From NCBI RefSeq assembly GCF_023161965.1, contig NZ_JALNTY010000001.1, positions 788,501 through 852,500 of the forward strand: DNA of 64,000 bases, in the 5' to 3' direction. How positions within the stretch are numbered: the first letter of the stretch is position 1; each line of letters starts with the position of its first letter. This document shows, in pieces, positions 12,032-29,804 of the stretch. This DNA is from Anaerosoma tenue (GTDB lineage: Bacteria; Actinomycetota; Coriobacteriia; Anaerosomatales; Anaerosomataceae). Position numbers and translations under genes: made by a program. The notes beneath the pieces were generated by a model. The model had not been told where the DNA came from, searched no databases, and worked only from the letters and a program-made list of their open reading frames with translations.

Positions 12032-12143
12032 CGGATAGGGGCCTCCTCGGGCCATAACACGGGCGGCGATGCCGCCCGGGAAGAGACAACGGCGCAGTAT
12101 AGCACAGGCGCACGGCACGCCTGCCGCGGCGGACAGCGCCCTG

Positions 12144-13544: not shown

Positions 13545-14372
13545 CTAGTGGAAGTACTCGGAGTGGAGTGATGTGGTGAGGAACGAGGTGAAGAACAGCG
13601 ACAGTATCGCAAGAACGAACCCCAGCAGGAGGAGCATCGCCGCGCTGCGGCCCTTCATGCCGTAGAAGCGACGCGCGTGGAGGTAGATGCCGTAGACGAA
13701 CCAGGTGACGAGCGACCACGTCTCGATCGGGTCCCACCCCCAGAAGCGGCCCCAGGAGTAGTACGCCCATATCGCGCCGGTGAGCATACCGATACCCCAG
13801 AACGCGAACGTGAGCCCGGCGAACCGATATGACTCACGATCGAGCGTAGCCGCATCCGGCACGTTCGCGATGCGTTGCACGAGCGTGGTGTCGCGAGCGA
13901 TGTACAGCACCCCGTGGCCGAGAGAGATCAGCGCCGCCGCGAACGCCACGAAGTAGAAGCACACATGCAGCACCAGCCACACCCCCCTGAACGTGAGGGG
14001 CAGCATCTGGACCTCAGGACCGGTGTAGACGGCGAGTCCGAGCAACAACAGGACCGCCGGGTAGATCAGCGTGGTGAGGTACGCGCTCCCGGGACGCCGC
14101 CAGCGCAACGCCTGCATGAACGTCATCGCAACCCAGGCGTTGGACGACAGCACCTCGTAGCGGGTGAGGTACGGCCCGTGCCCGGTGCCGTACCAACGCA
14201 GCCCGAGCGCCACGGAGTGCACCGCCAGCCCCACGAGCGCCAGCGTATGACCCGCGCGTGCGACACCCGGCTTCGACATCGTGACCCCGAAGACGACGCA
14301 TCCTGCCGCGATCGCATAGGCCACGAGCGCGAACACGTGCAGCGGAGTCTCGATCGCGAGGGCCTGCTCCAT
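13545..14372 (-). CDS. ccsB: Cytochrome c assembly protein CcsB/CcsA (system II)
   Basis: A 275-residue polytopic membrane protein that in system II handles and exports heme for attachment to apocytochromes. It has about eight hydrophobic helices. The heme-handling tryptophan-rich motif is WGRFWGWDPIETWSLVTW near residue 205, and conserved histidines sit in LVGLAVHSVALGLRW and VWLVLHVCFYF. The start ATG overlaps the resB stop (TGATG), so the two form a translationally coupled pair, directly downstream of the multiheme cytochrome genes that need it. Confidence 0.92.
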   Translation of the reverse strand: MEQALAIETPLHVFALVAYAIAAGCVVFGVTMSKPGVARAGHTLALVGLAVHSVALGLRWYGTGHGPYLTRYEVLSSNAWVAMTFMQALRWRRPGSAYLTTLIYPAVLLLLGLAVYTGPEVQMLPLTFRGVWLVLHVCFYFVAFAAALISLGHGVLYIARDTTLVQRIANVPDAATLDRESYRFAGLTFAFWGIGMLTGAIWAYYSWGRFWGWDPIETWSLVTWFVYGIYLHARRFYGMKGRSAAMLLLLGFVLAILSLFFTSFLTTSLHSEYFH

Positions 14373-15661
14373 CACACATCCTCTCCCGGACCGGCATCGA
14401 GCCCGAGTATCGCATCCCGCTCGGCCACGTACGCGCGTGACATCCTCGCCGCATGCCAACCGTACAGCACACCGTCGCCCGTCTCCACGAGCACGAGTTC
14501 GCGGGGGATCCACCCGTACAGCATCAGCGAGCCCAGCGCGATGATGCTGAAGCCGATCAAGAGGACGGTCATCCCCGGCTCGCGTTGGATGATGAAGCGG
14601 GCCCACTGCGCGGTCCCGATGTACTCGACGGTGAGCCCGGCCACAGTCCCGGTCCCGCCTTCGGCCAGAGTGACCGGCTCGGAGGAGTCGTCACCCGCCG
14701 GGCGCAGGCCGAGCGGCTCGGCCGCACGCACCGCGTACGGGTCCCACCGCGCTTCGACCGCCACGCCTCCAACGTCGTACGGCTCCTCCGTGTACGCGAC
14801 ATCACCCTGCTCGATGAACGGGAACTCGATACGGACGGGGTGCTCGACGCCTTCGTCCGTGCGGAAGACCACGAACGCAGCATCGCCGAACTCGCCGGGC
14901 TGGGCGTAGATGGTGTGGCCGTTGAGGCGGAGCGGATGATTCACGCTCACGACCCGGGGCGTCCAGGAACCCCTGCCGTCGCGCGTGGACAGCGTGGCGC
15001 TCACCTCACGAAGGCCGCCGCCCGGCCATGTCGCCACCGTCACGCCATCGAACCGGATCGGCACGCCGATCTCGGGCACCGCCTGCGCATCCTCCACGGC
15101 CCAGTATGCGTCTCCCGGAGAGTGCACCTCGCCCTCGGACAGGTCGAGGATCGCCCCCCGAGTGGACCCGAGAGCCACCGCAGCGGCGATGAGTGACACG
15201 AACATGCCCACGTGAAGGATCGCCGACGCCCATACGCCGACACGATGGCGTGCGAACACCCGCGCATCACCCGCGACCCGACGCTGGCGGTACCCGGCCG
15301 CCCGCGCCCGTGCCGCGATGTCATCAGCAGAGACCCCCGCGATCGCCGTGCGCGCGACGCGCCCCTCCCCCGACCAGGCGCGCCATGCGCCGGCAAGCAT
15401 GCGGTGGGTCGCGATGCCCAGGACCACAGCGAACACGGCAAGCATCGCGAGGAACCACCAGGAGCTGAAGATGGCGTGCAGCCCGAGCGCGTCCGCGACA
15501 CCCGCGAGCATCGGATTGCGCGCCCGCCAGGCGGCGATCGTCGCCTCACGCCCGGGTGACGACTGCGGGATGTACGCGCCGATCGCGCCGCAGACGGCAA
15601 CGAACGCCATCAGGGCGATGGAGGTGCCACGGGAGGTCAGGACGTCCAGTAGTCTGCGCAT
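14372..15661 (-). CDS. resB: Cytochrome c biogenesis protein ResB/Ccs1
   Basis: Partner of CcsB in the system II cytochrome c synthetase complex. The protein of about 429 residues has transmembrane helices near residues 12-30, 65-85 and 155-175, a large extracytoplasmic region (SEGEVHSPGDAYWAVEDAQ to PGEFGDAAFVVFRTD) and a final helix (PGMTVLLIGFSIIALGSLMLYGW). The LTSRGTSIALMAF start and the short LPHE-like end segment are typical. The ATG at 15661 was chosen; an in-frame GTG nine codons upstream cannot be excluded. It lies 48 bases after the largest cytochrome gene. Confidence 0.88.
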   Translation of the reverse strand: MRRLLDVLTSRGTSIALMAFVAVCGAIGAYIPQSSPGREATIAAWRARNPMLAGVADALGLHAIFSSWWFLAMLAVFAVVLGIATHRMLAGAWRAWSGEGRVARTAIAGVSADDIAARARAAGYRQRRVAGDARVFARHRVGVWASAILHVGMFVSLIAAAVALGSTRGAILDLSEGEVHSPGDAYWAVEDAQAVPEIGVPIRFDGVTVATWPGGGLREVSATLSTRDGRGSWTPRVVSVNHPLRLNGHTIYAQPGEFGDAAFVVFRTDEGVEHPVRIEFPFIEQGDVAYTEEPYDVGGVAVEARWDPYAVRAAEPLGLRPAGDDSSEPVTLAEGGTGTVAGLTVEYIGTAQWARFIIQREPGMTVLLIGFSIIALGSLMLYGWIPRELVLVETGDGVLYGWHAARMSRAYVAERDAILGLDAGPGEDV

Positions 15662-15709
15662 GCGGATGATGGTAGCAGGTGGCGGCACGGACGCATGCGG
15701 AACAGCCGG

Positions 15710-18700
15710 CTACCAGTTCTCCATCCCGGTCGCGGTGTTGCTCATCGTGTGCTTGTTCGCCCCACCGGAACACCCGCTCGAACTCGAAGAGACGAGGCAG
15801 TCCGAGAGCACGTAGTCGCTCGGGTTCTGGCGCTTGTTGAACCCGCTCACCCACATGTTCGAGAGGTTCCCCTGATACGCAAGCCTGCTTGGCATCGTCT
15901 GGGCGTCACCGATCAAACGGGACACCTTACCGCCGTGCGGCACCAGGATGTGGCACCGGATGCACGGGTAGTTGGAGTGGGCGCCCTTGCGATGGACGAT
16001 GTTGTCGCGCACCTTGTCGGCCGGATGGCAGTTCGTGCAGAAGACACCACCCGAGGTGCCCGAGAAGTTCTGCATCGAGCTGATCGTGATCAGCGTGCCC
16101 TCAAGGGCGCCGGTGCCGGGACCCCATTCGGGCCAGCTGGTATGCGGTCCACGGAGCGAGAACCGCACGGTCGCGCCATGCGGACCCTGCGGGACCGTGA
16201 CGGCCGCGGGGTTGGTGACCCAGTTGCCCGAGCCCGCAGGGCTCTCCACCATCGCGTACGGAGCGGTGGAATCGCCGTGGCAATCGGAGCACATCATCGT
16301 GTCGCCGGGATCCCAGCCATACGCGACCTGGTCGGCGATGAGCGTCGATGTCTGGTACGTTGCCGGATCGGACAGCTTGTCGAGGTAGCCGGGAATCCTC
16401 ACCTTCGAATCCGTGGAGAAGCCGTTGGCGAGGTCGTACTCATAATCGGCCTCGGACTCGTAGTAGTAGCCGTCGAGTGTTGCGAAGACCGGGTGCCGCG
16501 AGTTGTTGCCCACGTTGAAGTCTTGGGCGACGTTGGTCCAGTTGTCGACGGCCGCATTCGTGCCCACGGTCCACGACGACCCCGTCCAGGAGTCCCACAC
16601 CATGTCCCCGCCCCAGCCGGCGAGGTCGGTGTTGGCGCTCGAGTGGCACTTGAAGCAGACCTCGTACTCGTACGCGGCCATCTGCCTGTATACGAGCTCC
16701 ACTCCCGCTCCACCGTCGTGTGCGTAGTCGATCGTAGCGGGGTAGTTCTGCGTGAGCAGCGTACCCAGCGTCGTTGAGACCGCAGCCGCGTCAACACCGA
16801 ACCCGACACCGCGCACGCCCTTGAGGGCGTCGGACACGAGGTTGGTGGTGCCGTACACGTGACGCGCCTTGCCCACGATATGGTGATTGTGGCAGTCGGC
16901 GCACTCCACGTGTTTGTTTGCGCTGATGTAGTCCTGGGTCTCATCCACCGACGAGATCAGGTGCTTCATGTAGTAGTCGGCGGGCTTGTGCCCGAACGGG
17001 CTGTTCGCGGGATCCATCTGGTCGGCTATGGCGCGGTTCGCCGCACCCATCGCCTGCGAGCCGTAGTAGTCGTAGTTGCTCGCGCCGATCTTGTCCGTTG
17101 AGTTGCTGTGACACCGGAAGCACATGTCCTCTTCGTTGATCGCCGCTTCAGAGGCGTCGCGGATCTGACCGAGGGCGTTGAGGAGCCGCTGCTCGGGTGA
17201 GTAATGCACCGTGAACGAGAACGGTGTCGTCTCCGTGTACTGCCCGGGCTCGAGCGTCCCGTGGCACTTGGTGCAGTTGCCGTGGAACTCCGACCCGTCG
17301 GCGAAGTAGGCGGTCGCCGAGTAGTTGTGCGGGGAGTCCGCCCAGTAGTCGTCTTCAACGCGCATCACCGCGGTCGCCGGGAGCGCGTTGTCCGCCTGGC
17401 CCGGCGGCGTGGGGGTGATGCCGTCCACCGAGCGGAGGATCCTGAACGGCAGCGTGTACGAGTGGCAGCTCAGGCAGAGGCCCTCGTCCGTGTTCGATGC
17501 TGTGGGGTTGGCATCAAGGCCGCTGCTGCGCAGGTTGTACGAGTTGCCGAGGCCCTCCCATTCGGTGTGGTCCACGTGGCAGCTGATGCACGAGAGATCC
17601 TGCGTGGTCTCGCCGAAGACCGGATACAGGCCATCCTCGCCGGGCGCCTGATCGGGGTCCGCCGCGTTGAGCACGTGATGATACGACAGGGTGGAGTCCA
17701 CCATGTCGTGCAGCGCGCTGTGACACGCGCTCTCGAAGCAACTGGTCTGACCCGCGGGAGAGCCCATGGGAGCATGGACGTCGCCGTGGCAAACAGTGAG
17801 ACAGTTCTCGGTGTCGTCGCTGTCGTGGCCGGAGCGGATGTCCCACAACCGCAGCTGGTTCCTGTCCGGATCGCCCTCGGCCTTAGGTGCGGCCCGCAAG
17901 AGCCCTGCCACCTCGGCGGATGCGCTCACGGGCACGTAACCGCCGGCGCCGGAGTTCGCTTCGCTGTCCCAGCCGTACGGCCTCCCCGTGCCGGCATCCA
18001 CGTCGGCGGTGGTGTGACAGGTGAAGCAGAAACGCCGCACACCCGCGTCGGTGCCCGTTTCGAGCGACGAACCGAGCACGTCCGAGAACAGCGTGGCGTT
18101 GCCCCGCGTGGAGCCGTGCGGATTGTGGCACTCGTAGCATGGGAGCGGCGAGCCCACGGGCAGGTCACCGCCCGCCGTCATGATGCGGTGGCCGTTGGTG
18201 TCGTTGGCGTTGTGGACCGTGGTGAGAGCCGAGCTGGCGATATCGGCCGCAGCGGACGGCGTGTCGAAGGTCATCCCGCTTGCCGGTGTGGCCGAGTGGC
18301 AGCGGAAGCACACCGCCGCGTAGTCGCCGTCCACGGTATCCGCCGCGGTGCCGCTCGAGCCGCCGAACGTATCGATCAGGCCGTCGTACTCGCTCACGCC
18401 ACGATGTCCTGAGTGGCACCAGAGGCAGTCGCCGGCCACGCGTGTCGCCTCACGACTGGCGAACACCCAATCGTCCATGGAGCCCGACGGGATCGCCGTG
18501 TGCGGATTCGCCACCGGGTCCGCGTAGGTGGTGGCGCCAGGGAACGTGCCGAGGGTGGGATAGCCGGTGGCGTTGCGTGTAGGAGCCGCAAGACTCGGAT
18601 AGACTCCCGTGCCGCGCGAGCGATACCAGCTCTGATCGTCGTCATGGCACGCGTAGCACCATGTGTTGTCCGCACCCGTCACGGTGCGGGTCTCCACCGT

Positions 18701-19228
18701 GACCCCGTCCGGCAGCGTCACGTCTATCGACCGCTGCGGGATGCGGAACCACTCAGTGGAGTCTTCATGCGGATAATGGCAACTCGCACAGGTGTCGGTG
18801 AGATCGGCGCTGCCGCCGGTGCATGCCGCCGCCTCGAGCGCATGACCGCTCGTGCCCGCGAACGAAGCGTTGCTGGATCCCGTCTTCACGTTGACCGCTG
18901 CGGTGCCGTCGTGGCAACCGTAGCAGAACGTGACCCCGTCGAACTCGCCCGTTCCTCCGCCAAGGTCCCTGAGGATGTTGTCGCCGGCCGCCTGGTGAGG
19001 CACGTGACACTGGGTGCACGCGTCGGTCTCGCTCGAGTACGTGGTATGCGGCGTTGCCGCGAGGGCCGGTGGGGAATCGATCGCAACGAGCGCCAGGGCC
19101 CACACCGCCGCGACGATGACGGCACGCAGAACCCGGCGAGAGCGCGTCCGGGAGTCTGCCCCCGCAGTACACGCGCTATCCCCCAGCTGTGCCGATGGAA
19201 CCTCTATGCAACGGTCGATATGCTGCAA
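15710..19228 (-). CDS. Large multiheme c-type cytochrome (about 19 heme sites)
   Basis: Exported protein of about 1172 residues with 17 canonical CxxCH heme sites spread along its length, plus one CX3CH (17786-17803) and one CX4CH (17720-17740). Many sites are followed by PHG/PHE or HGD, and extra histidines that could be distal ligands are abundant. A signal peptide (RRVLRAVIVAAVWALALVAIDSPPALAA) precedes the first motif. Between motifs lie long Gly/Ser/Asp-rich spacers, unlike compact small cytochromes. The TTG at 19228 is favoured by AGGAG seven bases upstream; the frame is open up to 19384. The C-terminus has two non-heme cysteines around a serine run. Probably an extracytoplasmic electron carrier; partner unknown. 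Confidence 0.88.
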   Translation of the reverse strand: MQHIDRCIEVPSAQLGDSACTAGADSRTRSRRVLRAVIVAAVWALALVAIDSPPALAATPHTTYSSETDACTQCHVPHQAAGDNILRDLGGGTGEFDGVTFCYGCHDGTAAVNVKTGSSNASFAGTSGHALEAAACTGGSADLTDTCASCHYPHEDSTEWFRIPQRSIDVTLPDGVTVETRTVTGADNTWCYACHDDDQSWYRSRGTGVYPSLAAPTRNATGYPTLGTFPGATTYADPVANPHTAIPSGSMDDWVFASREATRVAGDCLWCHSGHRGVSEYDGLIDTFGGSSGTAADTVDGDYAAVCFRCHSATPASGMTFDTPSAAADIASSALTTVHNANDTNGHRIMTAGGDLPVGSPLPCYECHNPHGSTRGNATLFSDVLGSSLETGTDAGVRRFCFTCHTTADVDAGTGRPYGWDSEANSGAGGYVPVSASAEVAGLLRAAPKAEGDPDRNQLRLWDIRSGHDSDDTENCLTVCHGDVHAPMGSPAGQTSCFESACHSALHDMVDSTLSYHHVLNAADPDQAPGEDGLYPVFGETTQDLSCISCHVDHTEWEGLGNSYNLRSSGLDANPTASNTDEGLCLSCHSYTLPFRILRSVDGITPTPPGQADNALPATAVMRVEDDYWADSPHNYSATAYFADGSEFHGNCTKCHGTLEPGQYTETTPFSFTVHYSPEQRLLNALGQIRDASEAAINEEDMCFRCHSNSTDKIGASNYDYYGSQAMGAANRAIADQMDPANSPFGHKPADYYMKHLISSVDETQDYISANKHVECADCHNHHIVGKARHVYGTTNLVSDALKGVRGVGFGVDAAAVSTTLGTLLTQNYPATIDYAHDGGAGVELVYRQMAAYEYEVCFKCHSSANTDLAGWGGDMVWDSWTGSSWTVGTNAAVDNWTNVAQDFNVGNNSRHPVFATLDGYYYESEADYEYDLANGFSTDSKVRIPGYLDKLSDPATYQTSTLIADQVAYGWDPGDTMMCSDCHGDSTAPYAMVESPAGSGNWVTNPAAVTVPQGPHGATVRFSLRGPHTSWPEWGPGTGALEGTLITISSMQNFSGTSGGVFCTNCHPADKVRDNIVHRKGAHSNYPCIRCHILVPHGGKVSRLIGDAQTMPSRLAYQGNLSNMWVSGFNKRQNPSDYVLSDCLVSSSSSGCSGGANKHTMSNTATGMENW

Positions 19229-19380
19229 TCCCCAGCTCCTGTGCCGCACTGCACGCGCATGTGGCGCGCCGCCCCCGAAGCGCGCAGCGAACGGGACAAG
19301 CTCGATGCCTGCCTTCACTGACATTGTGACAGAGCCCACACGGCTCTGCCAGACGTCACGACCACTCATGGGGAGCCGCT

Positions 19381-20373
19381 TCACCGCGCTTCCCTGATCC
19401 CGTAGACCATCACACGCCCCGTGCCGGCGTCCGTGATGTAGAGACGGGAGTCCTCAGGCACCCACGCCATACCTCGTGGCGACACGAGGCCCCCCGACGG
19501 GACCGACACCTCGTCGATGGAGTCCACGATCATTCCATCGGCATCCACGATGGCCACCCTGAGAGCGAGGGCATCGAGGACCGCCATCCGGCCGTCTCCA
19601 AGCGCCGCGATCGAACGGGGGGTCATGTGAAGACCCTCGTGCAGAACCACCCGTTCCCCCGAGTCGGGATCGAGAACGATCAATCGACCGGCACCGGGGT
19701 CGGTCACCACGAGCCCCTCGGCCGTCACGGCGAGCCCCGCGGAGAATCCCATCGGGGCCTTAGCGTCGGCTCCCAGTACGCGGGTGTAGGCGCCCCCGGT
19801 GTCGTACACCTTGACCGTACCGTCGGCAGCGTCGGCCACGAAGAACTCGCCCTCGGCATACGTGACTGCGGTGGGCTGGCCAGGCGCCTGACCGCTTGAG
19901 CCGAGAGTAAGCGTGATCGTCGCGGGTGTGGCGGGCTCGGCATCCACCACCACCGCACGGTCCGCGGCGTTGTCTACCACGACGATCCGGCCGTCCGCCA
20001 CGGCGACCACCGACGGATACGCGGAAGCGACGCTGCTGGCCGAAGGGATGACGATAACGCCCGCGTCACCCCCCTCGGCATCGAATATGCGCACGACCCC
20101 CGCATCCGACTCGGCCACGTAGAGGAACTCGCCGTCCCAGGCTATCCCGATGGGGTTGGCGAGCGGCGGCTGCTCCGCTCCGGGGAACATGCCCGCAAGC
20201 ATCACCGTGGCCATGGTATCGCGTGAGAACTCCGCGAGCTCCACCTGCCCCGGCCTGCTCTCCTGCAGCAGGATCGAGACCGTCACCGCCACGGCGACGA
20301 GCACTATCACTGCGAGCATGGCGAAGACGACCGTGCGTGGACGCACCGCCCGTGGAACCCCCTGAGGCGCCAT
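19381..20373 (-). CDS. Membrane-anchored NHL-repeat beta-propeller protein
   Basis: A 330-residue protein with one N-terminal helix (TVVFAMLAVIVLVAVAVTVSILL, about 14-36), then repeated NHL/YVTN-like blades. Examples are PIGIAWDGEFLYVAESDAGVVRIFD, PTAVTYAEGEFFVADAADGTVKVYD and PRGMAWVPEDSRLYITDAGTGRVMVYG. About six blades can be traced, giving a closed propeller outside the membrane. No catalytic motif. The start ATG shares a base with the stop of the preceding cytochrome gene (TGATG), so co-translation is likely. In this setting it may be a scaffold for cytochromes; that is inference. Confidence 0.82.
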   Translation of the reverse strand: MAPQGVPRAVRPRTVVFAMLAVIVLVAVAVTVSILLQESRPGQVELAEFSRDTMATVMLAGMFPGAEQPPLANPIGIAWDGEFLYVAESDAGVVRIFDAEGGDAGVIVIPSASSVASAYPSVVAVADGRIVVVDNAADRAVVVDAEPATPATITLTLGSSGQAPGQPTAVTYAEGEFFVADAADGTVKVYDTGGAYTRVLGADAKAPMGFSAGLAVTAEGLVVTDPGAGRLIVLDPDSGERVVLHEGLHMTPRSIAALGDGRMAVLDALALRVAIVDADGMIVDSIDEVSVPSGGLVSPRGMAWVPEDSRLYITDAGTGRVMVYGIREAR

Positions 20374-21869
20374 CAGAAGTCGACACCCACGATATCCCCG
20401 GGGGTCACCGCATGGCAGATGAGGCAGTTCCCGTCGAGCGGGGAGTCGTAGTAGCGGAGCATGTGGTTGTGATCGGTGCCGTGAGGGCCATGGCACGTGG
20501 TGGTGCAGGTGAGATCGGTCTTCGCGTTCACGTCGTAGTAGACCGGCCGCACCGGATGGTTCTTGTAGCCGCCCGCATGATCGTCATAGTCCGCACGTTC
20601 GTGACACGGGAAGCACACCTCCGGCTGTGCGGCCTTCAGCAGCGGACCCCAGTCCGAGCCGTGCGGCGTATGGCAGCCCCAACATGGCGTGTCCACATGC
20701 ATCGAACGGTCGTAGCTCGCCTGGATCGGCGTGGCGTGGCAGTCGTAACAGATGCCGTTGTCATCGTCGTAGAGCAGCGCGCTGTAGTTGGTGGCGTGCG
20801 CATCATGACACCCCGTGCACTGCAGTGAGATCGTCCCCACCGGGTGGTGGCTCGCCTTGAGGAAGTCGGTCTCGATCCCGGGGTGGCACATGTAGCACAG
20901 ACGTGGCTCCTCGGCGCGCAGGAGCGGCATGTGGTCGGAGCCGTGCGGTTCATGACAGTCGGTGCAAGCGTCGTTGAGGTAGGGCCCGTGCTGCACCGCC
21001 ATGCCCGAGAGCCGGGCCACCGACGGATGACAGGTGAAGCACAGGTCGCGCTGTGCATCCACAAGGATCCCCTTGTAGGCCGAGCCGTGGGGGTTGTGAC
21101 AGTCGGTGCAGTGGAAACCCTGCACGGGCGCGTGCACCTGCATACGTGAGAGTTGCGGACCGAGAGGATGACAGGTGATGCACAGCGACTCGACATCGGC
21201 CGTGAGCATGCTCGCGAAGTCTGACGCGTGCGGATCGTGGCAGTCGACACAGTGACCGTTGGTGAACGGCGCATGCGAATAGGCGGTGTTGCGCATCGAT
21301 CCCATGTCGCCGTGGCAGATCCAGCACAGCTCGTTGCCCGGCAGGACGAGCTCGGACCGCTCACCCTTCACCGGCGTCTCGGTGACGCCCTTGATGTCGC
21401 CACCCTCGGACCCGCCTGCGTCATCCTCGGCGTCGAACACGTCAAGCGCGATCTTGAGGGGCAGCCATTGGACGAGCGTGCGGGTGCGGTTCCAGAACTG
21501 GGAGACACCCTCTATCACCGTCTCGGCCTCTATCAGCCCGTGCGGCGTGTGACACGTGGTGCACTGCTCGGCCATGAACGGGTTGTGGACCACATCGCGA
21601 TCGAACTCCGGGATGAGCTCGGCGTGACACTGGAGACACTCGAGGTTCTCGATGACTCCACGCACCACCTGGTCGTCTCCCTGCAGGACATACGTCTGCG
21701 CGATCGTGGTGACGGCGCACAAGAGGAGCAGGAGCAGCACGACGGCGGCGAACACGCCCCGTCCACGGCGGTCGCGCCCACCCTCTGTCACCGCTCCATC
21801 CGCGGCGTTCTGTACCGCCTCAGCGTCCTGTTCGCTCAACACGCCTCCCCCGGCGATCTGGTCGTGCAT
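20373..21869 (-). CDS. Membrane-anchored multiheme cytochrome (about 15 heme sites), paired-CXXCH type
   Basis: A 498-residue protein with a cytoplasmic leader, one hydrophobic anchor (GVFAAVVLLLLLLCAVTTIA, about 38-57), then 14 CxxCH sites and one CX3CH (20490-20507). The sites alternate in the doubled-CXXCH manner, with CHDPHAS, CHNPHGS, CHEPHGS and CHTPHGS after every second motif, as in NrfB-like and decaheme electron-transfer proteins. No reductase active-site motif (CxxCK) was seen. The anchor suggests a quinol-linked or periplasmic-face electron carrier. The start could instead be the GTG or TTG ten codons in, after a GGGGGAGG. Confidence 0.87.
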   Translation of the reverse strand: MHDQIAGGGVLSEQDAEAVQNAADGAVTEGGRDRRGRGVFAAVVLLLLLLCAVTTIAQTYVLQGDDQVVRGVIENLECLQCHAELIPEFDRDVVHNPFMAEQCTTCHTPHGLIEAETVIEGVSQFWNRTRTLVQWLPLKIALDVFDAEDDAGGSEGGDIKGVTETPVKGERSELVLPGNELCWICHGDMGSMRNTAYSHAPFTNGHCVDCHDPHASDFASMLTADVESLCITCHPLGPQLSRMQVHAPVQGFHCTDCHNPHGSAYKGILVDAQRDLCFTCHPSVARLSGMAVQHGPYLNDACTDCHEPHGSDHMPLLRAEEPRLCYMCHPGIETDFLKASHHPVGTISLQCTGCHDAHATNYSALLYDDDNGICYDCHATPIQASYDRSMHVDTPCWGCHTPHGSDWGPLLKAAQPEVCFPCHERADYDDHAGGYKNHPVRPVYYDVNAKTDLTCTTTCHGPHGTDHNHMLRYYDSPLDGNCLICHAVTPGDIVGVDF

Positions 21870-21901
21870 CGTGTCCGTGCATCATTCGTGTCGCGAGCAC
21901 G

Positions 21902-22978
21902 CTACCCTCGCGGCTGAGTGTGACAGTTCAGGCATAGGTCGTCATCGGTTTCCACGAGGAAGTACGGATTGTCCGACTCGTGAGGGAACACCTGATAGCG
22001 AGGGTTGTCTCCCTCGACGGCCCCATCGACACCGGTGATCGCGAACACCTCGGACGCATCGATCGTCTGGGCTGTGATGTCACCCACGCTCCGTGCGTCC
22101 TCGTGACACTGCTGGCAGATCGGATCGTGTCCGTTCTGGTTGCTGGTGCGTGGATGCGGCATCACGTAGCCGTTGTTGTTGTAGCCGAGAGTACCCATCG
22201 TGTTGTCGGGGTACACGATGTTCTCGTACGTGTAAGGACTGGCGGGGTCAGGCTGCGTGATCTCCGAGTCGACCGGATGGTTGTGGAGCGTGGTCTTCGA
22301 CAGCCGGCCGGCATGGCACGATCCGCACCAGTCGGAGCCGTAGACGTCGATGGCGGCCAGGCCGCCGGTAGGCTCTTGCCGGAGCAGACGGTTGGAGACG
22401 ATCTCGTTGCCTGTGGCGCTGGGCACGCTCGTTCCCGAACGCGCGCGATCCCCGGTGAACGCAGCGACCGTGCTCGCGCCGTGCGGGCTATGACAGTCGG
22501 TGCATGTGAGGCCTCCGGCGGTGCCGGAGAATGCGGCGGTTCGAGAGCCGCCGCTGGTCCCATCGCCACCAGGGATCGACGTGATGGGATCCACGGCCGT
22601 GTCGAGCATCGTGTGCTCAGCAGCCGGCGCTACGCCGGTGCGCGCCTCGATCACGCCGTACACGCCAACGCCGCCGGTCCCGTCGTGACACGTCTCGCAG
22701 GTCGCCAGGACGGTGGCGGCGGGGAGGAGCACGATGCCCCCGGCAGGCGCCTTATGGACCGAGTGGCAGGCTGAGCATTTGTTGCTGGTGGTGGTGTAGT
22801 CCGCATGAGGACCGTACGGCTCCGACTCCGCGAGAGCGGCCGACGTCCCGTGACAGGTCTCGCATGGCGTCTCCGACGTGGCCGCACCCGAGGGATCCTC
22901 CGTGTAATACGCATGCGCAGGCGCCGCGATGCACAGCATCGCGGCGGCGATCATGCTTACGGAGAGTATGCGCCTCAT
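21902..22978 (-). CDS. Exported heptaheme c-type cytochrome
   Basis: A 358-residue protein with a signal peptide (MRRILSVSMIAAAMLCIAAPAHA, cleaved before YYTED) and seven CxxCH sites: CETCH, CSACH, CETCH, CTDCH, CGSCH, CQQCH and CLNCH. Several histidines between motifs could be second axial ligands. No CxxCK or other catalytic signature was seen, so electron transfer rather than nitrite reduction is the best reading. An alternative GTG start lies six bases upstream. First cytochrome transcribed after the NHL gene at 23073. Confidence 0.86.
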   Translation of the reverse strand: MRRILSVSMIAAAMLCIAAPAHAYYTEDPSGAATSETPCETCHGTSAALAESEPYGPHADYTTTSNKCSACHSVHKAPAGGIVLLPAATVLATCETCHDGTGGVGVYGVIEARTGVAPAAEHTMLDTAVDPITSIPGGDGTSGGSRTAAFSGTAGGLTCTDCHSPHGASTVAAFTGDRARSGTSVPSATGNEIVSNRLLRQEPTGGLAAIDVYGSDWCGSCHAGRLSKTTLHNHPVDSEITQPDPASPYTYENIVYPDNTMGTLGYNNNGYVMPHPRTSNQNGHDPICQQCHEDARSVGDITAQTIDASEVFAITGVDGAVEGDNPRYQVFPHESDNPYFLVETDDDLCLNCHTQPRG

Positions 22979-23072
22979 GGCCACATCCCGGTACGACCGC
23001 CTCCCCCAGTCAACGGCGTGTGCGAAAGATCACATCGATGATAGCAAACGAACAGGTCGGAGACAGCACCGG

Positions 23073-24155
23073 TCAGTCGATCAGACGTACGAGTTGGATC
23101 CGCTCATTACCCTTATCGGCAACGACCAAGAATCCCCTGAAAGCAGCGGCGTCGTTCGCGAAGTTCCACTGGCCGGACTCCACACCGCGCTCCCCGTATC
23201 TGACCAGCACCTCTCCCTCGGCGGATATGCGTACGAGATCGAACCCGAACGCGTCCACCACCAGGAGCGATCCGTCCGCCATCACCTCGATGCCACGGGG
23301 CAGCTGCAGCTCGGCATCGCTTTCGGCACTCATGCCTTCAGGCGGCGAACCCACCTGCCACAGCACCGTTCCGTCCACGCTGAACGCGGTGACGCGCGCG
23401 TGATTGGTGTCCGACACGTACACCGTGCGCCCGTCCTCGCTCACCGCGATGCCGTTGGGGTGGTCGAGGTCTCCCGGACCCGCCCCGGGCTTGCCCCACT
23501 GGTCGAGCAGCTCGCCGTCGGTGGAGAAGACCAGCACCTGATAGGTGTCGGTGGCGTAGACGCGGCCGTCGCGCACTGCTACATCGGTGACCGCGATACC
23601 CCGGCCACCGAAGCCGGAGCCTCCCCGACCCACGATGATGTCGGGATCGGGGAACCGCCGGAGCGGCGTTCCGTCGGCGGCGTACACTTCGATCGAGTCG
23701 TTGTAGAAGCTCGCAACGTAGACGTTGCCGTCCTCATCCACGTCGATCCCCACCGGATAGTTGAGCTCGCCGGGATCATAGGTGGCGGGATTACCCGCCG
23801 AGGGCTTCGCGACCCCGAATCCGCCGAACTCGAACCGGAAGCGGCCTTGTTCGTCGAAGACGCAGACCCGGTTGTTCCCCGAGTCGGTCACGTAGATGCG
23901 ATCATCCGCGCCGACCGCGACACCCATCGGCCCGGCGAACCGCGGCGTCTCCCCTTCGCCGGGGCCGTACGTCTCCCAGACGCCCTGCACACCGGCTACC
24001 GAGTCGCCGGACACACCCGGAAGAGCCTCGGGTCTGCCGAGATACCAGTACAGGTAGACGACCAGCCCGACCAGGACCAGCGTCAACAGCACGGCGAGCG
24101 CGGAGAACGCCTGCCGCGCCGTGAAGGCCCCCCTGCGGATCCCGGGCGTCGTCAT
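23073..24155 (-). CDS. Membrane-anchored NHL-repeat beta-propeller protein
   Basis: A 360-residue protein: short Arg-rich start, one hydrophobic helix (ALAVLLTLVLVGLVVYLYWYL, about 19-39), then clear NHL blades. Examples are PMGVAVGADDRIYVTDSGNNRVCVFD, PVGIDVDEDGNVYVASFYNDSIEVY, PNGIAVSEDGRTVYVSDTNHARVTAF and PRGIEVMADGSLLVVDAFG. Paralogue in layout of the protein at 19381-20373. The ATG overlaps the stop of the TPR gene (ATGA). The propeller would sit outside the membrane next to the cytochromes; scaffold or ligand-binding role unproven. Confidence 0.85.
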   Translation of the reverse strand: MTTPGIRRGAFTARQAFSALAVLLTLVLVGLVVYLYWYLGRPEALPGVSGDSVAGVQGVWETYGPGEGETPRFAGPMGVAVGADDRIYVTDSGNNRVCVFDEQGRFRFEFGGFGVAKPSAGNPATYDPGELNYPVGIDVDEDGNVYVASFYNDSIEVYAADGTPLRRFPDPDIIVGRGGSGFGGRGIAVTDVAVRDGRVYATDTYQVLVFSTDGELLDQWGKPGAGPGDLDHPNGIAVSEDGRTVYVSDTNHARVTAFSVDGTVLWQVGSPPEGMSAESDAELQLPRGIEVMADGSLLVVDAFGFDLVRISAEGEVLVRYGERGVESGQWNFANDAAAFRGFLVVADKGNERIQLVRLID

Positions 24156-24835
24156 CGGTCGTCCTCCAGCCTCTCGAGACCCTCGCGCGCCTCCACGTGG
24201 TCGGGCACGTACGTGACCGCGCCCCGGTAGTAGGCGATCGCGGGGTCCGTCAGGCCGAGCTGCTCGCAAGAGTATCCCGCGAGGTACTGGAGGTCGGCGA
24301 ACTCGGGCCGCATCTCGATCACCGGCTCGAGCGCGGTGAGTGCCGACTTGTAGTGCCCCCGGCCGATGTAGTACTCGCCGAGCGCCTTGGCTGCGAGCAC
24401 GTGGTCGGGCGTCACCTCGAGCACGTCCCACAGCACGACCTCGGCCTCATCGCCCCGGTCGAGCGCAAGGAGCGCCACGCCCTTGTTGTAGAGCGCCCCG
24501 GGGTTGCCCGCATCGAGTTCGAGGGCCCGATCGTACATCTCGAGCGCCCGGTCGTAGTCGCCGCCCTGCTGGTACGAGTAGCCCAGGCCGATGAGCGCAT
24601 CGGGGTCAGAAGGATCCGCCTCGACCTCACGTTGCCAGTCCTCCAGCGCCATCTCGGCCACGCTGGCGGGCGGCTCATCGACGATGAGACCGCGGATCAC
24701 GAAGCCGGCGAGAACGGCCACGGCGAGCAGCAGCGCGAGGACGAGCAGGGCCAGCCACGCCGGCACGAGGTCGGCGTCCGGGCCGGATGCGATCTCGTCC
24801 GCATGCACGAGATCCGGGTCGTCGCTCACGCTCAC
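24152..24835 (-). CDS. Membrane-anchored TPR protein
   Basis: A 227-residue protein with one N-terminal helix (WLALLVLALLLAVAVLAGFVIRGLIV, about 27-52). At least four TPR-like repeats follow, for example PDALIGLGYSYQQGGDYDRALEMYDRALELDAGN, PGALYNKGVALLALDRGDEAEVVLWDVLE and AAKALGEYYIGRGHYKSALTALEPVI. Its GTG start overlaps the ligase stop and its own stop overlaps the NHL start, so it links the glycan and cytochrome genes in one translation unit. In cytochrome c maturation, TPR proteins of the CcmH/NrfG kind hold apocytochromes; such a role here is possible. Confidence 0.82.
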   Translation of the reverse strand: MSVSDDPDLVHADEIASGPDADLVPAWLALLVLALLLAVAVLAGFVIRGLIVDEPPASVAEMALEDWQREVEADPSDPDALIGLGYSYQQGGDYDRALEMYDRALELDAGNPGALYNKGVALLALDRGDEAEVVLWDVLEVTPDHVLAAKALGEYYIGRGHYKSALTALEPVIEMRPEFADLQYLAGYSCEQLGLTDPAIAYYRGAVTYVPDHVEAREGLERLEDDR

Positions 24836-27249
24836 GGCGTCTCCGTTCCGCTGGTCATCGCGGCCTCATAGGCCTCGATCGCCTCGAGGCCCGAGCTCGC
24901 GGCCGCGTTGCCCGGCTCACGTTCCAGCACGTACTCGTACGCCGTGCGGGCGTCTTCCACGCGACCCGCAACCCGGTAGGCGTCGCCCAGCCGTGCGTAG
25001 GCGGCCAGGAACCGGGGGTCGAGGTCCGTGGCGAACTCGAGATGCTCGATGGCGAGCGCGTGGTCGCCCAGGGAGAGCGCCGCCGATGCCAGCTGGAACC
25101 GCACCGCCGGACCGTACTCCTCCACCTCGATGCCGGCACGGGCCACCTCTATCGCGTGCGTGAAATACGCCGGATCGAGGTATGTGCCGGCCTCATTGTA
25201 GAGGCTCGCATAGAAGACGTACGTGTCATACTCCTCCGGCTCGTACGCCATCATCTCCTCGTACGCCAGCGCCGCATTCTGCAGCGCCGTCAGAGCGGCT
25301 GCCCTGGCCTGTTCGTCGGGCGTGCCCGCGTCCACGGACTCGGAGTACACGCGCGCGGTAGCACGCATGACGTCCTGCCACGCAACGCCGAGCTCGAGCC
25401 GGTACATGTCGTTGTACGGGTTCAGCGAGATCGCTCGCTGGATCGTCTCCACCCGGTCGTACCCCTGCTCGACCATTCGGCCACGGAGGTACACGTTGTC
25501 GGCAACGATGAACCGGACGTTCAGGACGCTTCCCGCCACCACCAAGGCCACGATGGCCGATGTCAGAAGGACCGGCCTACGCGCGGGAGCGGCCTCGTGC
25601 TCCGTGGCTCCCGGGCTGAGCAGCAGTCCCATGGACAGCCAGAGGAAGATCGTCGACCCCGTCACCGAGAGACCGAAGAGCAGATGCACCACGTATCCGG
25701 CGATCGCGGCCCAGAAGCCGGCGAGCAGCATCCGCTTGGCGCCCTGACCCCGCCCGAACACCATCCGTGCCGAACGCGCGAGCACCCATACGATGAGCCC
25801 GTACATCAGCAGGACGCCGGGGATGCCGATGCCGGTGGCCAGCTGGAGCGGGTAGTTGTGCACGTTGTCGGCCACCGACAGATAACCGGCAGCCTTCACG
25901 TACTCCGCCGGCTTGAACATCGGGAAGAGCAGTCTGAACGTGTCGGCGCCCCACCCCAGCAGCGGCCGCTCGGCGATGGCCGCAAGGGCCGCCTCCCATA
26001 TCTGGAACCGCGTGAGCGCGCTCCCTTGGTCGAACTGGAAGATGGAGACCACGCGCGTAAGGACGTTCCTCACGGCGTCTGGCCTGAGCGAACTGGCGAT
26101 CGCGGCCACTCCGATCGTGGCCGCGCCTGCCCCGATGAACGCCTTGTCGATGGTGGAAAGACGCGTCTCGGTCCCCGAGCGTGACCGCAGATACGAGACC
26201 ACCAGGAGGATGAGCGACACGGTGGCGCCGATCCACGCGCCACGCACATAGGATGTCACCCCCACGAACGCGTTGAAGAGCGTGAACACCCAGTAGATGG
26301 CACGCCACAGCCGGTGATCCTCGGACAGCGCGAGCCCGATCACGACGGCCCACGGGAAGATGAGGTAGCCGCCGAGAAGGTCGGGATTGCCGAAGGTGGA
26401 GAACGCGCGGTGGGTCTCGAAAGGCAGGGTCCCCCAGCGGACGGGGTCCAGTGCCACCACCGCGGCGCCCGATTGCACCGCCGCATCGAGGTTCTGCGCC
26501 AGACCGGCCGAGAAGAACACGCCCCCCACGGCGGCCAGCGCGGCGCCGATGAAGGCGGCCTGCCGGGCCTGGGGGTCGTCGTGCAGCTTCGTGAGAGCCA
26601 GCGTCACGAGGGCGACAGGCGCCCCGATCGTGAACAGCACGCTGACCGGCTGGAGCACGCGCGCCACGCCGATACCCACGGTACCCATCACCTGGATGGC
26701 GCCGTACAGGGCGACCACGAAGCCCGCGACCCCGAGCGAGCGCGCCAGCGAGCGGATACGGGATGCCCGGTCGCCGAGCTGCAATGCTAGGAAGAAGACG
26801 GAGGCATACGTGAGGAAGGAGATCAGCCCCTCGAACCGCCGGTACTTGCCGAAGATCGCCGTCGGCACATGCACGGAGAACGCGGTGGTGAGCACCAGCC
26901 AGGCGACGAACGCCAGCACCAGCCATCCCACGCGCGTGGTGCGGACCTTGCCGCCGCGGAGCACCAGCCCGATGATCCACGAGCCGAGCGCCAGGAGCAC
27001 GAGTCCTCGCTGCACGAAGACCTTCAGGATGTCGAACTGGTCGTAGGTTATCGGCAGGCCGTTGCCGCTCAGTGGACCGAAGTTCGACATCGCGAGCGGC
27101 ACCAGGACCACGAGCGCATGGAGGAATATCCACGCGATCCTGTCCCACACGTCCATCGTGCTCATGGGGGATACGTGCGTCGGCCGCTTCGCAGCCGCGC
27201 CGGACCTGGCCGGCTTCGCGCCTGCCGGTCGCTTCCGCTTCTTCGCCAC
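24832..27249 (-). CDS. O-antigen ligase/polymerase-like protein with C-terminal TPRs
   Basis: An 805-residue polytopic protein. A Lys-rich start is followed by about 12 hydrophobic helices carrying the Wzy_C/WaaL signature ALAAIAERPLLGWGADTFRLLFP near residue 425, then a C-terminal soluble domain of TPR-like repeats (from about 600; AIEHLEFATDLDPRFLAAYARLGDAY is the clearest). This family joins or polymerises undecaprenyl-linked glycans, or glycosylates proteins outside the membrane. The GTG start has AGGAG five bases upstream. The fused TPR part is unusual for plain WaaL and may recruit acceptor proteins. Confidence 0.83.
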   Translation of the reverse strand: MAKKRKRPAGAKPARSGAAAKRPTHVSPMSTMDVWDRIAWIFLHALVVLVPLAMSNFGPLSGNGLPITYDQFDILKVFVQRGLVLLALGSWIIGLVLRGGKVRTTRVGWLVLAFVAWLVLTTAFSVHVPTAIFGKYRRFEGLISFLTYASVFFLALQLGDRASRIRSLARSLGVAGFVVALYGAIQVMGTVGIGVARVLQPVSVLFTIGAPVALVTLALTKLHDDPQARQAAFIGAALAAVGGVFFSAGLAQNLDAAVQSGAAVVALDPVRWGTLPFETHRAFSTFGNPDLLGGYLIFPWAVVIGLALSEDHRLWRAIYWVFTLFNAFVGVTSYVRGAWIGATVSLILLVVSYLRSRSGTETRLSTIDKAFIGAGAATIGVAAIASSLRPDAVRNVLTRVVSIFQFDQGSALTRFQIWEAALAAIAERPLLGWGADTFRLLFPMFKPAEYVKAAGYLSVADNVHNYPLQLATGIGIPGVLLMYGLIVWVLARSARMVFGRGQGAKRMLLAGFWAAIAGYVVHLLFGLSVTGSTIFLWLSMGLLLSPGATEHEAAPARRPVLLTSAIVALVVAGSVLNVRFIVADNVYLRGRMVEQGYDRVETIQRAISLNPYNDMYRLELGVAWQDVMRATARVYSESVDAGTPDEQARAAALTALQNAALAYEEMMAYEPEEYDTYVFYASLYNEAGTYLDPAYFTHAIEVARAGIEVEEYGPAVRFQLASAALSLGDHALAIEHLEFATDLDPRFLAAYARLGDAYRVAGRVEDARTAYEYVLEREPGNAAASSGLEAIEAYEAAMTSGTETP

Positions 27250-27257
27250 TCGTTCTC

Positions 27258-28622
27258 CTATCGCGCACCGCGGCCGGTAAGGACCACGCGGATCGTCTCG
27301 GCCATGATCTGCACGTCCATCAGCAGCGTCTGATGATACAGGTAGATGAGGTCGAACTTCAGCTTGCGCTCGGGTGTGGTGGCGTAGCCGCCGCTCACCT
27401 GCGCGAGCCCGGTGACGCCGGGCTTCACGCGGAAGCGCTCGCGGTAGCCGGGGATCTCGCGCTCGAACCGCTCCACGAAGAAAGCGCGCTCGGGACGCGG
27501 CCCCACGAAGCTCATCTGGCCCACGAGGATGTTCACGAGCTGGGGCAGCTCGTCGATGCGGTACCGGCGGAGGAAACGGCCTACCGGCGTGATGCGCGGG
27601 TCGTCCTCGGTTGCGAGCACCGGACCCGACGCCGCCTCGGCATCGCGCACCATAGTGCGGAACTTGTGGACCTTGAACGGATGCATGTCCCGTCCCACGC
27701 GCTCCTGCGAGAAGAAGACCGGCCCGCCCATCGTGAGCAGGACCGCCAGCCCGGCGATCAGCAGCACCGGGCTGAGCAGCACGAGCAACAGCGCCGAGAG
27801 GGCCACATCGCCAAGCCGCTTCACCAGCCGGTACCAGCCCGGCACCGAGGAGTGTGTGAGCGCCATCAGCGGGATGTCGGCGATCGTGCTATCCACCGTG
27901 CCGATGAGGATCTCATAGAGGTCGGGGATGACCTCAACGCGAACGTCGCTCTCGTTGCCGATCGCCATGTCCTCGATCAGCTCTCGCAGAGCTACGGGAC
28001 TTGCCACTATCACGCGGGTCACGCGCTCGGCGGCGACGAGCGCGGGCACGTCGGCCACGGTCCCGAGAACGGGCACGTCGCAGTCCGAGTCCTCGGCCTC
28101 GATATCGTCGCGGCGGACGAGGCCCACCACGTGGTAGCCCCATCCCCGGCGCTCATCGATCTCACGCGCGAGGTCGCATGCGAGCGGCGTGGTGCCCACC
28201 ACGAGCACCCGCTGTTCCGGCCACTGGATAGACGTGGTCCGGAGCACGGCGAGCCGCCACAGCGTCAGGAGCGCGGCATCCAGCGCCCACGCGATCACGA
28301 TGGCCAGACGTGAGAAGCTGAAGAAGCGCGGTCCGGCGAAGAACGCCACCGCCGCCACCAGCACGGTGCCGAGCGTGACCGCCTGAACCGCACCCCGCAC
28401 GATCCCCCAGGCGCCTTCGATCCGCTCGGGCTCGTAGAGCCCGTAGATGTACGCGGACGCGAGGTAGAGCAGCGTGATGAGCGGCCACAGCCCCAGGTAC
28501 GCACCGAAGTTGAACCGGGGGAGCTCCCCGCCGAAGCGGAGCACGAAGGCCGTCACGATGCCCGCGTTCACCAGGATCGCGTCGAGCACCACCGAAAGCG
28601 CTATGAACCGGCCGCGGGACAC
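27258..28622 (-). CDS. Undecaprenyl-phosphate sugar phosphotransferase (WcaJ/WbaP type)
   Basis: Starts surface-glycan repeat units by moving a sugar-1-phosphate to undecaprenyl phosphate. The 454-residue protein has four N-terminal helices, a CoA-binding-like central domain (RVLVVGTTPLACDLAREID), a fifth hydrophobic segment, and the catalytic bacterial sugar transferase domain. That domain shows FFSQERVGRDMHPFKVHKFRTM, RRYRIDELPQLVNIL and MSFVGPRPE, then KPGVTGLAQVSGG. The GTG start follows the stop of the glycosyltransferase gene at 28623 with no gap. Nine bases before the ligase gene. Confidence 0.93.
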   Translation of the reverse strand: MSRGRFIALSVVLDAILVNAGIVTAFVLRFGGELPRFNFGAYLGLWPLITLLYLASAYIYGLYEPERIEGAWGIVRGAVQAVTLGTVLVAAVAFFAGPRFFSFSRLAIVIAWALDAALLTLWRLAVLRTTSIQWPEQRVLVVGTTPLACDLAREIDERRGWGYHVVGLVRRDDIEAEDSDCDVPVLGTVADVPALVAAERVTRVIVASPVALRELIEDMAIGNESDVRVEVIPDLYEILIGTVDSTIADIPLMALTHSSVPGWYRLVKRLGDVALSALLLVLLSPVLLIAGLAVLLTMGGPVFFSQERVGRDMHPFKVHKFRTMVRDAEAASGPVLATEDDPRITPVGRFLRRYRIDELPQLVNILVGQMSFVGPRPERAFFVERFEREIPGYRERFRVKPGVTGLAQVSGGYATTPERKLKFDLIYLYHQTLLMDVQIMAETIRVVLTGRGAR

Positions 28623-29804
28623 CTAGACACCACCCCGGGCCTCATCGTAGACGGCGCGCGTGTCGGCGACCATACGCGCGATGGTGAAGTCGCGCGCCGC
28701 CCGCTCCGCCGCCTGTGCTCCGAGGCGAACGCGGAGCGCATCGTCGGAGACGATCTCGTGAAGCGCCTCGGCCAACGCGCGTGCGTCGCCGGGCGGGACG
28801 GTAAGGCCGGTGACGCCGTGCTGGTTGACGAACGGCACTCCTGTGGTGAGACGCGTGGAGACCACCGGCGTGCCCGCAGCATGCGCCTCGAGCTGCACAA
28901 GCCCGAACGCCTCGGATCGGGCGACGCTCGGCAGACAGAAGACATCGGCTGCGTGGTACCAGGCCGCGAGCTCATCGTCACCCACCGGGTCGGTGAACCG
29001 CACGCGATCCTCGATGCCGAGCGACGACACCAGCTCGTCAAGCTCGGCGCGGAGCGGCCCGCTCCCGATCATCACGAGGTCGGCGTCGACCTCGGCCATG
29101 GCGCGCACAAGCACGTCGGCGCCCTTGTAGTAGATGAGACGGCCCACGAAAAGCACGACCGGCCGTTCACCGCGTGACGGTGTGCCCTCCGTGCGGAGCT
29201 CGGCGGCGCGGGTGGTGCGCTCGGGGGTGGCGGCGAACCGCTCCACGTGGATGCCGAAGGGCACCACGCGGCACTTGGACGCGACGGGCGCGAGGTACTC
29301 GCTGTGCTCGACCATGTCGGGCGATGACGCGATCACCAGATCCACGCGGTCGAGCACCCGCCGCAATAGCGGCGCATAGGCGCTGCCGAGCACCTTCTGG
29401 CGCACGATGTCGCTGTGATAGGTGAGCACGGTGGGGACGTCGCTCCGGGGACGCCAGCCCGAGAGGGCGCCGCGGCCGCCACGGGCGGCGAGCCACGACA
29501 CCTCGCCCCACGGATACGGGAAGTGCAGGTGGAAGACGTCGGGACGATCGGGGCGCGCAGCCTCCTCGGCGATGGCGCGCTTCATGCCGGGGGCCACCGG
29601 CGTGGACGCATAGGCGAAGAGCCGGGGCAGACGCGTGACCGCCACGCCGTCGAGCGTCTCGAAGACCCCCTCGGGGCCTTCGTTGGCGACGATGACGTGA
29701 ACGCCGTGACCGGCCTCGGAGAGCGCAACCGCGAGATCGCGCATGTGGTATTCGATCCCACCCAGATGTGGCGGGTAGTACTTGTTGAGCATCGTGATGC
29801 GCAT
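28623..29804 (-). CDS. Glycosyltransferase family 4
   Basis: A 393-residue GT-B protein: N-terminal MLNKYYPPHLGGIEYHMRDLA (acceptor-side loop), FVGRLIYYKGADVLVRAM, and the nucleotide-sugar site YHAADVFCLPSVARSEAFGLVQLEAHAAGTPVVST with the EX7E pattern. Retaining transfer from an NDP-sugar to a growing lipid-linked glycan is expected; sugar specificity cannot be told. Immediately precedes the sugar phosphotransferase in the same transcription unit. Confidence 0.9.
   Translation of the reverse strand: MRITMLNKYYPPHLGGIEYHMRDLAVALSEAGHGVHVIVANEGPEGVFETLDGVAVTRLPRLFAYASTPVAPGMKRAIAEEAARPDRPDVFHLHFPYPWGEVSWLAARGGRGALSGWRPRSDVPTVLTYHSDIVRQKVLGSAYAPLLRRVLDRVDLVIASSPDMVEHSEYLAPVASKCRVVPFGIHVERFAATPERTTRAAELRTEGTPSRGERPVVLFVGRLIYYKGADVLVRAMAEVDADLVMIGSGPLRAELDELVSSLGIEDRVRFTDPVGDDELAAWYHAADVFCLPSVARSEAFGLVQLEAHAAGTPVVSTRLTTGVPFVNQHGVTGLTVPPGDARALAEALHEIVSDDALRVRLGAQAAERAARDFTIARMVADTRAVYDEARGGV

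Follow-up and report, generated by a model that had tools for sequence, protein, structure and literature searches.

Most of what is understood about extracellular electron transfer concerns cells with an outer membrane, in which the cytochrome wire is held by porins, and how cells with only a wall accomplish it is an open question. Isolates of the order Anaerosomatales encode 17-18 multiheme cytochromes, and clusters of MtrA-, OmcH- and quinol-oxidising-type multiheme proteins along with cytochrome c biogenesis genes have been described for Anaerosoma and Parvivirga (PMC9686372). In diderms, NHL proteins are encoded beside multiheme clusters in Geoalkalibacter (PMC12016550), in Desulfovibrio ferrophilus (PMC8322314, PMC9769857) and in the Uet system (PMC10734462). 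The interface heme of OmcS and OmcE is coordinated by a histidine of the neighbouring subunit (PMC9473688), and OmcS homologues are present in diverse taxa (PMC12954529). Here we analyse a stretch of 64,000 nucleotides of the genome of Anaerosoma tenue, a member of the Anaerosomatales in the class Coriobacteriia (assembly GCF_023161965.1, contig NZ_JALNTY010000001.1, positions 788,501 to 852,500; hereafter the window) that encodes three multiheme cytochromes (CytA, CytB and CytC), two NHL beta-propeller proteins (NHL1 and NHL2) and a TPR protein, and that probably corresponds to the clusters described in PMC9686372. Because CytB is MtrA-like and CytC is OmcS-like, the best reading of this locus is an extracellular electron-transfer conduit suited to a cell without an outer membrane, to which we assign a probability of about 0.72; a preliminary description of the DNA had named a long electron conduit as one possibility.

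Results

CytB resembles MtrA and carries a predicted membrane anchor

CytB (20373..21869 of the window, minus strand, as are all genes of the cluster) contains 14 CXXCH motifs and one CX3CH motif, and all 15 heme sites, the CX3CH included, are invariant in 38 orthologues. Sequence, profile and fold comparisons each lead to MtrA: chain 6r2q_A (whose molecule name is mislabelled in the sequence file, the Foldseek table naming the entry as the Mtr complex) was matched by phmmer with E=2e-16 and by a CytB profile with E=1.6e-25, and an AlphaFold model, with a predicted local distance difference test (pLDDT) of mostly 77-93 in its core, retrieved the same chain as its sole significant match in the PDB (Foldseek E=3.4e-7, TMt 0.58). 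Against TIGR03508 (the DmsE family) CytB scored 167.2 bits, which is under the cut-off of 192.2. One uncleaved transmembrane helix is predicted ahead of the hemes in 39/39 orthologues. The hemes form seven pairs followed by a lone C-terminal heme, and 14 invariant distal histidines accompany the 15 invariant hemes; the last heme may be ligated by Met470 (present in 35/38 orthologues), by a variable residue or by a ligand donated from a partner. A protein of 901 residues encoded at another locus (L057:6250-8955) has 28 CXXCH and five CX3CH motifs, looks like an internally duplicated CytB and retains the C-terminal VGVDF tail.

CytC belongs to an OmcS-like family

CytC (21902..22984, with ATG 22978 as likely start) has seven CXXCH motifs and is a member of a 6-7-heme family, its hemes comprising six of OmcS type and an additional one at the N-terminus. 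A search of the PDB with the single sequence gave no match. A profile of 24 family members, by contrast, placed OmcS (6ef8) at the top, with a full-length alignment of E=4.2e-6, and OmcE next. In the alignment to OmcS, six heme motifs stand in register and the final CXXCH lies at the C-terminus. A second profile built from 13 members, all from outside the order, found OmcS with E=2e-16 as the best match in the whole PDB, well ahead of all other cytochromes. As controls, the CytB profile matches MtrA and not OmcS, and the CytA profile has no match. We also shuffled OmcS while preserving its heme motifs and histidines, 500 times per profile, and no shuffle reached the real OmcS score with the first profile (0/500; maximum 24.0 versus 27.1) or with the second (0/500; maximum 58.7 versus 63.0), the margins being modest in both cases.

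The CXXCH-xx-H arrangement of the first OmcS heme is present in 37/37 aligned members, and H75 of CytC, which by alignment corresponds to the OmcS histidine that serves the heme of the neighbouring subunit (which we take to be His16), is invariant. CytC has six invariant distal histidines, and Met273 (window about 22160) lies in a GYVMP motif and is invariant in 16 seven-heme orthologues, marking a candidate His/Met-ligated heme that would be expected to have a high potential. The signal sequence is of the cleavable type, with an AxA motif in 16/17 orthologues. The OmcS-like character of CytC thus provides a specific candidate for the cytochrome filament that the preliminary description had considered.

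CytA has a distal histidine for each of its 19 hemes

CytA (15710..19384, start uncertain), an exported 19-heme cytochrome, carries 17 CXXCH, one CX3CH and one CX4CH motif, and 19 conserved distal histidines accompany these 19 hemes in 10 orthologues. The heme counts of CytB and CytA are not due to chance, because the motifs and histidines are kept in 38 and 10 orthologues, respectively, and the counts of 19, 15 and 7 first proposed for the three cytochromes hold exactly once the CX3CH and CX4CH variants are included. Since every CytA heme has a distal histidine, no open catalytic heme is indicated, and by this criterion CytA would be a pure electron carrier. CytA has no match to the characterised multiheme reductases NrfA, ONR, OTR and HAO, in agreement with the earlier remark that reductase signatures were not seen. 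Neither the single sequence nor the profile of CytA matched any solved enzyme or cytochrome family in the PDB, so that we do not place it in a solved cytochrome family. The first third of CytA is similar to the OmcS-like family of CytC (N-terminal part of the mature protein, about 18290-19111; hhalign probability 99.3, E=7.5e-21; 75.7 bits versus a shuffled maximum of 44.2).

The CytA frame opens at 19384, the first ~80 codons are unconserved and the signal peptide corresponds to frame residues 83-109, so that a leader of ~150-250 nucleotides (nt) is likely and an overlap between NHL2 and CytA is doubtful. Rfam searches, including one at a relaxed threshold, revealed no riboswitch (e.g. for c-di-GMP) in the NHL2-CytA gap, a tRNA being the sole Rfam match in the window. 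The gap is unconserved apart from a short TCACAAT-like motif past the NHL2 stop (window 19310-19330), which is common to several relatives and may be an internal CytA promoter.

In other families, the proteins in the place of CytA have up to 50 CXXCH motifs and several end in F5/8-type C carbohydrate-binding domains. Among them are three giant cytochromes adjoining CytB (L052:3-6179, L041:3710-9277 and L034:4920-9032) with 33 to 50 CXXCH each, all of which end in F5/8-type C domains and two of which also have carboxypeptidase-regulatory-like domains.

Anchored propellers, gene junctions and flanking genes

The two NHL proteins exceed the Pfam cut-off of 20 bits with 85.6 bits for NHL1 (23073..24155, PF01436 E=1.1e-24) and 31.6 bits for NHL2 (19381..20373, PF01436 E=1.5e-7), and the TPR protein (24152..24835) was recognised by TPR families. 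A single uncleaved N-terminal transmembrane segment is predicted in 25/26 NHL1, 17/17 NHL2 and 20/20 TPR orthologues. The interleaving of the cytochromes with two membrane-anchored NHL proteins and a TPR protein was therefore correctly described, each lying where it had been placed, on the minus strand and with one predicted transmembrane segment. We revised the starts of NHL1 and NHL2, which are most likely ATG 24155 and ATG 20373 and not the GTG codons further upstream at which the open frames begin. The tight gene packing noted earlier applies to TPR/NHL1 (4-nt overlap), CytB/NHL2 (1 nt in common), CytC-CytB (32-nt gap) and NHL1-CytC (94-nt gap), and not with any certainty to NHL2/CytA, given the uncertain CytA start.

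In order of transcription, the region 13545-29804 encodes a glycosyltransferase, a WbaP-type protein, a Wzy_C+TPR protein, the TPR protein, NHL1, CytC, CytB, NHL2, CytA, ResB and CcsB. The ResB-type cytochrome c biogenesis protein (14372..15688, PF05140 E=1.3e-27) and the CcsB/CcsA-type system II assembly protein (13545..14375, PF01578 E=2.5e-32; likely start ATG 14372 or GTG 14375) are present as proposed, at 13545-15688 and hence outside the interval originally assigned to the block. On the other flank, immediately upstream, lie the Wzy_C membrane protein, which is O-antigen ligase/polymerase-like and has TPRs at its C-terminus (24832..27249, PF04932 E=1.7e-17), and two conserved neighbours, the WbaP-type sugar transferase (27258..28622, PF02397 E=5.6e-64) and the glycosyltransferase (28623..29804, PF00534 E=1.5e-39). 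A B12-binding radical SAM protein of the TIGR04190 family (window 10259-12118) stays near the cluster in many relatives.

Conservation of the cluster in the order and the phylum

CytB is present in 50/61 relatives, the named ones being metagenome-assembled genomes of Coriobacteriia/Anaerosomatales. We counted genes within 4.5 kb of CytB at 39 loci inside the order and at 20 loci outside it, in other families of the phylum; these counts are minimum values, as many contigs are truncated and frames that overlap were dropped. Inside the order, an NHL1-type gene was found at 29 loci, NHL1 or NHL2 at 33, CytC or another 6-7-heme gene at 23, Wzy at 21, TPR at 19 and NHL2 at 16. Outside the order, TPR was found at 16 loci, NHL1 at 14, a 6/7-heme gene at 13 and Wzy at 9. 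A set consisting of TPR, NHL, 6/7-heme and MtrA-like proteins recurs across the Anaerosomatales and, elsewhere in the phylum, in roughly a dozen further families, and the Wzy_C+TPR gene recurs beside it in both samples. The preliminary description had named absence of co-occurrence of NHL and cytochrome genes in related genomes as grounds for rejection; they co-occur across order and phylum. In a phylum-wide sample, CytB-type proteins were found in 24/396 genomes and 16/237 genera, with none in the class Coriobacteriia outside the order among the genomes listed.

Another multiheme protein of the relatives, Cyt11, carries a NapC/NirT domain (PF03264) and one uncleaved transmembrane segment and lies within 4.5 kb of CytB at 21/39 order loci, often as the adjacent gene. 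The Anaerosoma tenue genome encodes further NapC-type cytochromes and at least four further OmcS-like proteins at other loci, and only three of its NHL frames exceed the Pfam cut-off, two of these adjoining OmcS-like cytochromes. A search of this genome for Omp85, a family that the same search detects in seven control genomes, returned none, as did a search for the MtrB/PioB porin (PF11854), and on these grounds we take the organism to be monoderm, as its gene content makes it look.

Three other loci of this genome carry related genes. A second module (L067:7169-12050; C3:99-104 kb) has the order NHL1, 6-heme, 12-heme and 11-heme protein. A 744-residue, 21-heme fusion (L068:8378-10612; C3:310-312 kb) joins a NapC/NirT quinol dehydrogenase to extra cytochrome modules. 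At the third (L070:5024-14033; C1:144-153 kb), a 7-heme OmcS-like protein precedes one of 2643 residues that has 14 CXXCH motifs and a weak fn3 match.

Discussion

Family matches, ligand conservation, predicted topology, conservation of the gene neighbourhood and the absence of Omp85 and MtrB together point to a conduit that would operate as follows. Quinol would be oxidised by a NapC/NirT-type multiheme cytochrome, encoded next to CytB at roughly half of the order loci and elsewhere in the present genome, which would pass electrons to CytB, a 15-heme MtrA-like wire that would have its anchor in the cytoplasmic membrane and be directed outward across the cell wall. CytB would in turn reduce the exported CytC and the all-bis-histidine, 19-heme CytA with its CytC-like N-terminal part, from which electrons could reach a mineral, a partner cell or another acceptor. 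The anchored NHL propellers and the TPR protein would most likely act as a scaffold that holds or docks the exported cytochromes, ResB and CcsB would attach heme, and the Wzy, WbaP and glycosyltransferase neighbours probably make a surface glycan that houses the cytochromes. Both the direction of electron flow and the contacts between the cluster proteins are what we infer from this arrangement.

Several observations weigh against the conduit. When the three most OmcS-like rows were dropped from the profile, the best of 500 shuffles beat the real score (27.9 versus 26.6), and from this overshoot and the modest margins above we conclude that the similarity of CytC to OmcS is distant and carried largely by heme and histidine spacing. 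The structure prediction of CytC was unusable (pLDDT 40). Moreover, wire formation is known for OmcS itself and not for its homologues, homology being no proof of a wire (PMC12977616). A quinol dehydrogenase is absent from this cluster, Cyt11-type/PF03264 cytochromes being encoded at other loci of the genome, and other families carry different, often much larger cytochromes in the place of CytA. We regard polymerisation of CytC into an OmcS-like filament as possible but less likely than not. Similarly tentative is the broader idea that monoderm Actinomycetota build true nanowires, with CytC as the OmcS-like subunit, the N-terminal part of CytA as a start or cap, CytB as the feed and an NHL/TPR platform in place of the porin.

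Other functions have to be considered for the same genes. The cluster could be a cell-wall electron store or redox hub for other surface cytochromes of the genome with no outward route, and the OmcS-like and NapC-type proteins encoded elsewhere would fit such a network of which this cluster is one module; on the other hand, CytC and CytA are predicted to be exported while CytB is anchored, and the F5/8 domains on the giant CytA counterparts fit a surface placement, which makes a hub unlikely. Alternatively, one cytochrome, most likely CytA, might catalytically reduce a soluble or solid acceptor in the wall space while the others feed it. There are enzymes among large multiheme proteins, profiles of the CytC family also match nitrite reductases, weakly and as secondary matches, and heme 15 of CytB, which has no invariant distal histidine, leaves this terminal reductase a small opening. 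It is nonetheless quite improbable, as the distal histidines of CytA are conserved for each heme, its profile matches no solved enzyme and the sole fold match of CytB is the non-catalytic MtrA.

Least of all do we favour mere clustering, in which the NHL, TPR and glycan genes would serve glycan assembly and stand outside electron transfer. Glycan genes do adjoin the cluster, and TPR and NHL proteins are found in many contexts, but NHL1 and 6/7-heme genes are paired again, together with the TPR gene, at paralogous as well as distant loci whether glycan genes are present or not, and two of the genome's three NHL frames lie next to OmcS-like cytochromes, so this explanation is very improbable.

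As an electron-transfer conduit, the cluster would offer a concrete parts list for wall-only cells: a quinol dehydrogenase, an anchored 15-heme wire, an OmcS-like cytochrome, and propeller and TPR anchors. In cells without an outer membrane, cytochrome nanowires have received very little attention, and the literature cited here does not discuss them for Actinomycetota. The lineage is related to iron-breathing subsurface Actinobacteria, and in the cultured Parvivirga and Anaerosoma filaments could be sought directly. The cluster further suggests that the NHL proteins encoded next to cytochrome clusters of diderms, which have received little study, belong to such systems in general. GSU2505, considered as a possible NHL protein next to omcS, is listed as hypothetical in the literature and is not counted here as such a case.

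Comparison with known systems

The six OmcS-type heme motifs of CytC align along the whole of the Geobacter nanowire cytochrome OmcS (PDB 6ef8/6nef), and more weakly with OmcE (7tfs), whereas the additional N-terminal heme and the invariant Met273 set CytC apart from OmcS and some distal histidine positions are unaligned. Over ~220 residues CytB matches MtrA of MtrCAB (PDB 6r2q), with which it shares the paired CXXCH repeat, yet it has 15 hemes, compared to ten in the MtrA/DmsE type, and its N-terminal membrane anchor is uncleaved; moreover, unlike in MtrCAB, neither the MtrB porin (PF11854) nor Omp85 is encoded in the genome. Thermincola and Carboxydothermus are likewise Gram-positive Fe(III) reducers with wall-crossing multiheme cytochrome chains, some of them MtrA-like (PMC7911101, PMC7829351), but they belong to another phylum, and NHL and TPR proteins are unmentioned in PMC7829351. 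For the clusters of the same order (PMC9686372), NHL proteins, nanowires and a relationship to OmcS go unmentioned.

The closest gene arrangements are found in diderms. At the Geoalkalibacter locus 02426-02431, two NHL proteins are encoded together with homologues of MtoA and OmcE and a putative quinol cytochrome (PMC12016550), and multiheme cytochromes adjoin NHL/beta-propeller proteins in DFE_0448-0465 of Desulfovibrio ferrophilus (PMC8322314, PMC9769857) and in Uet of Tenderiales/Gallionellaceae (PMC10734462). Those cells are bounded by an outer membrane, and some of the systems are described as including porins or peptidyl-prolyl isomerases, whereas in the present cluster the propellers are predicted to be anchored in the cytoplasmic membrane and are accompanied by a TPR protein and glycan genes. 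The proposal of an undescribed system is not supported in that form (PMC12016550, PMC8322314, PMC10734462): the parts fall in known families, clusters of cytochromes with NHL proteins are already known in diderms, and what would be new here is a monoderm version.

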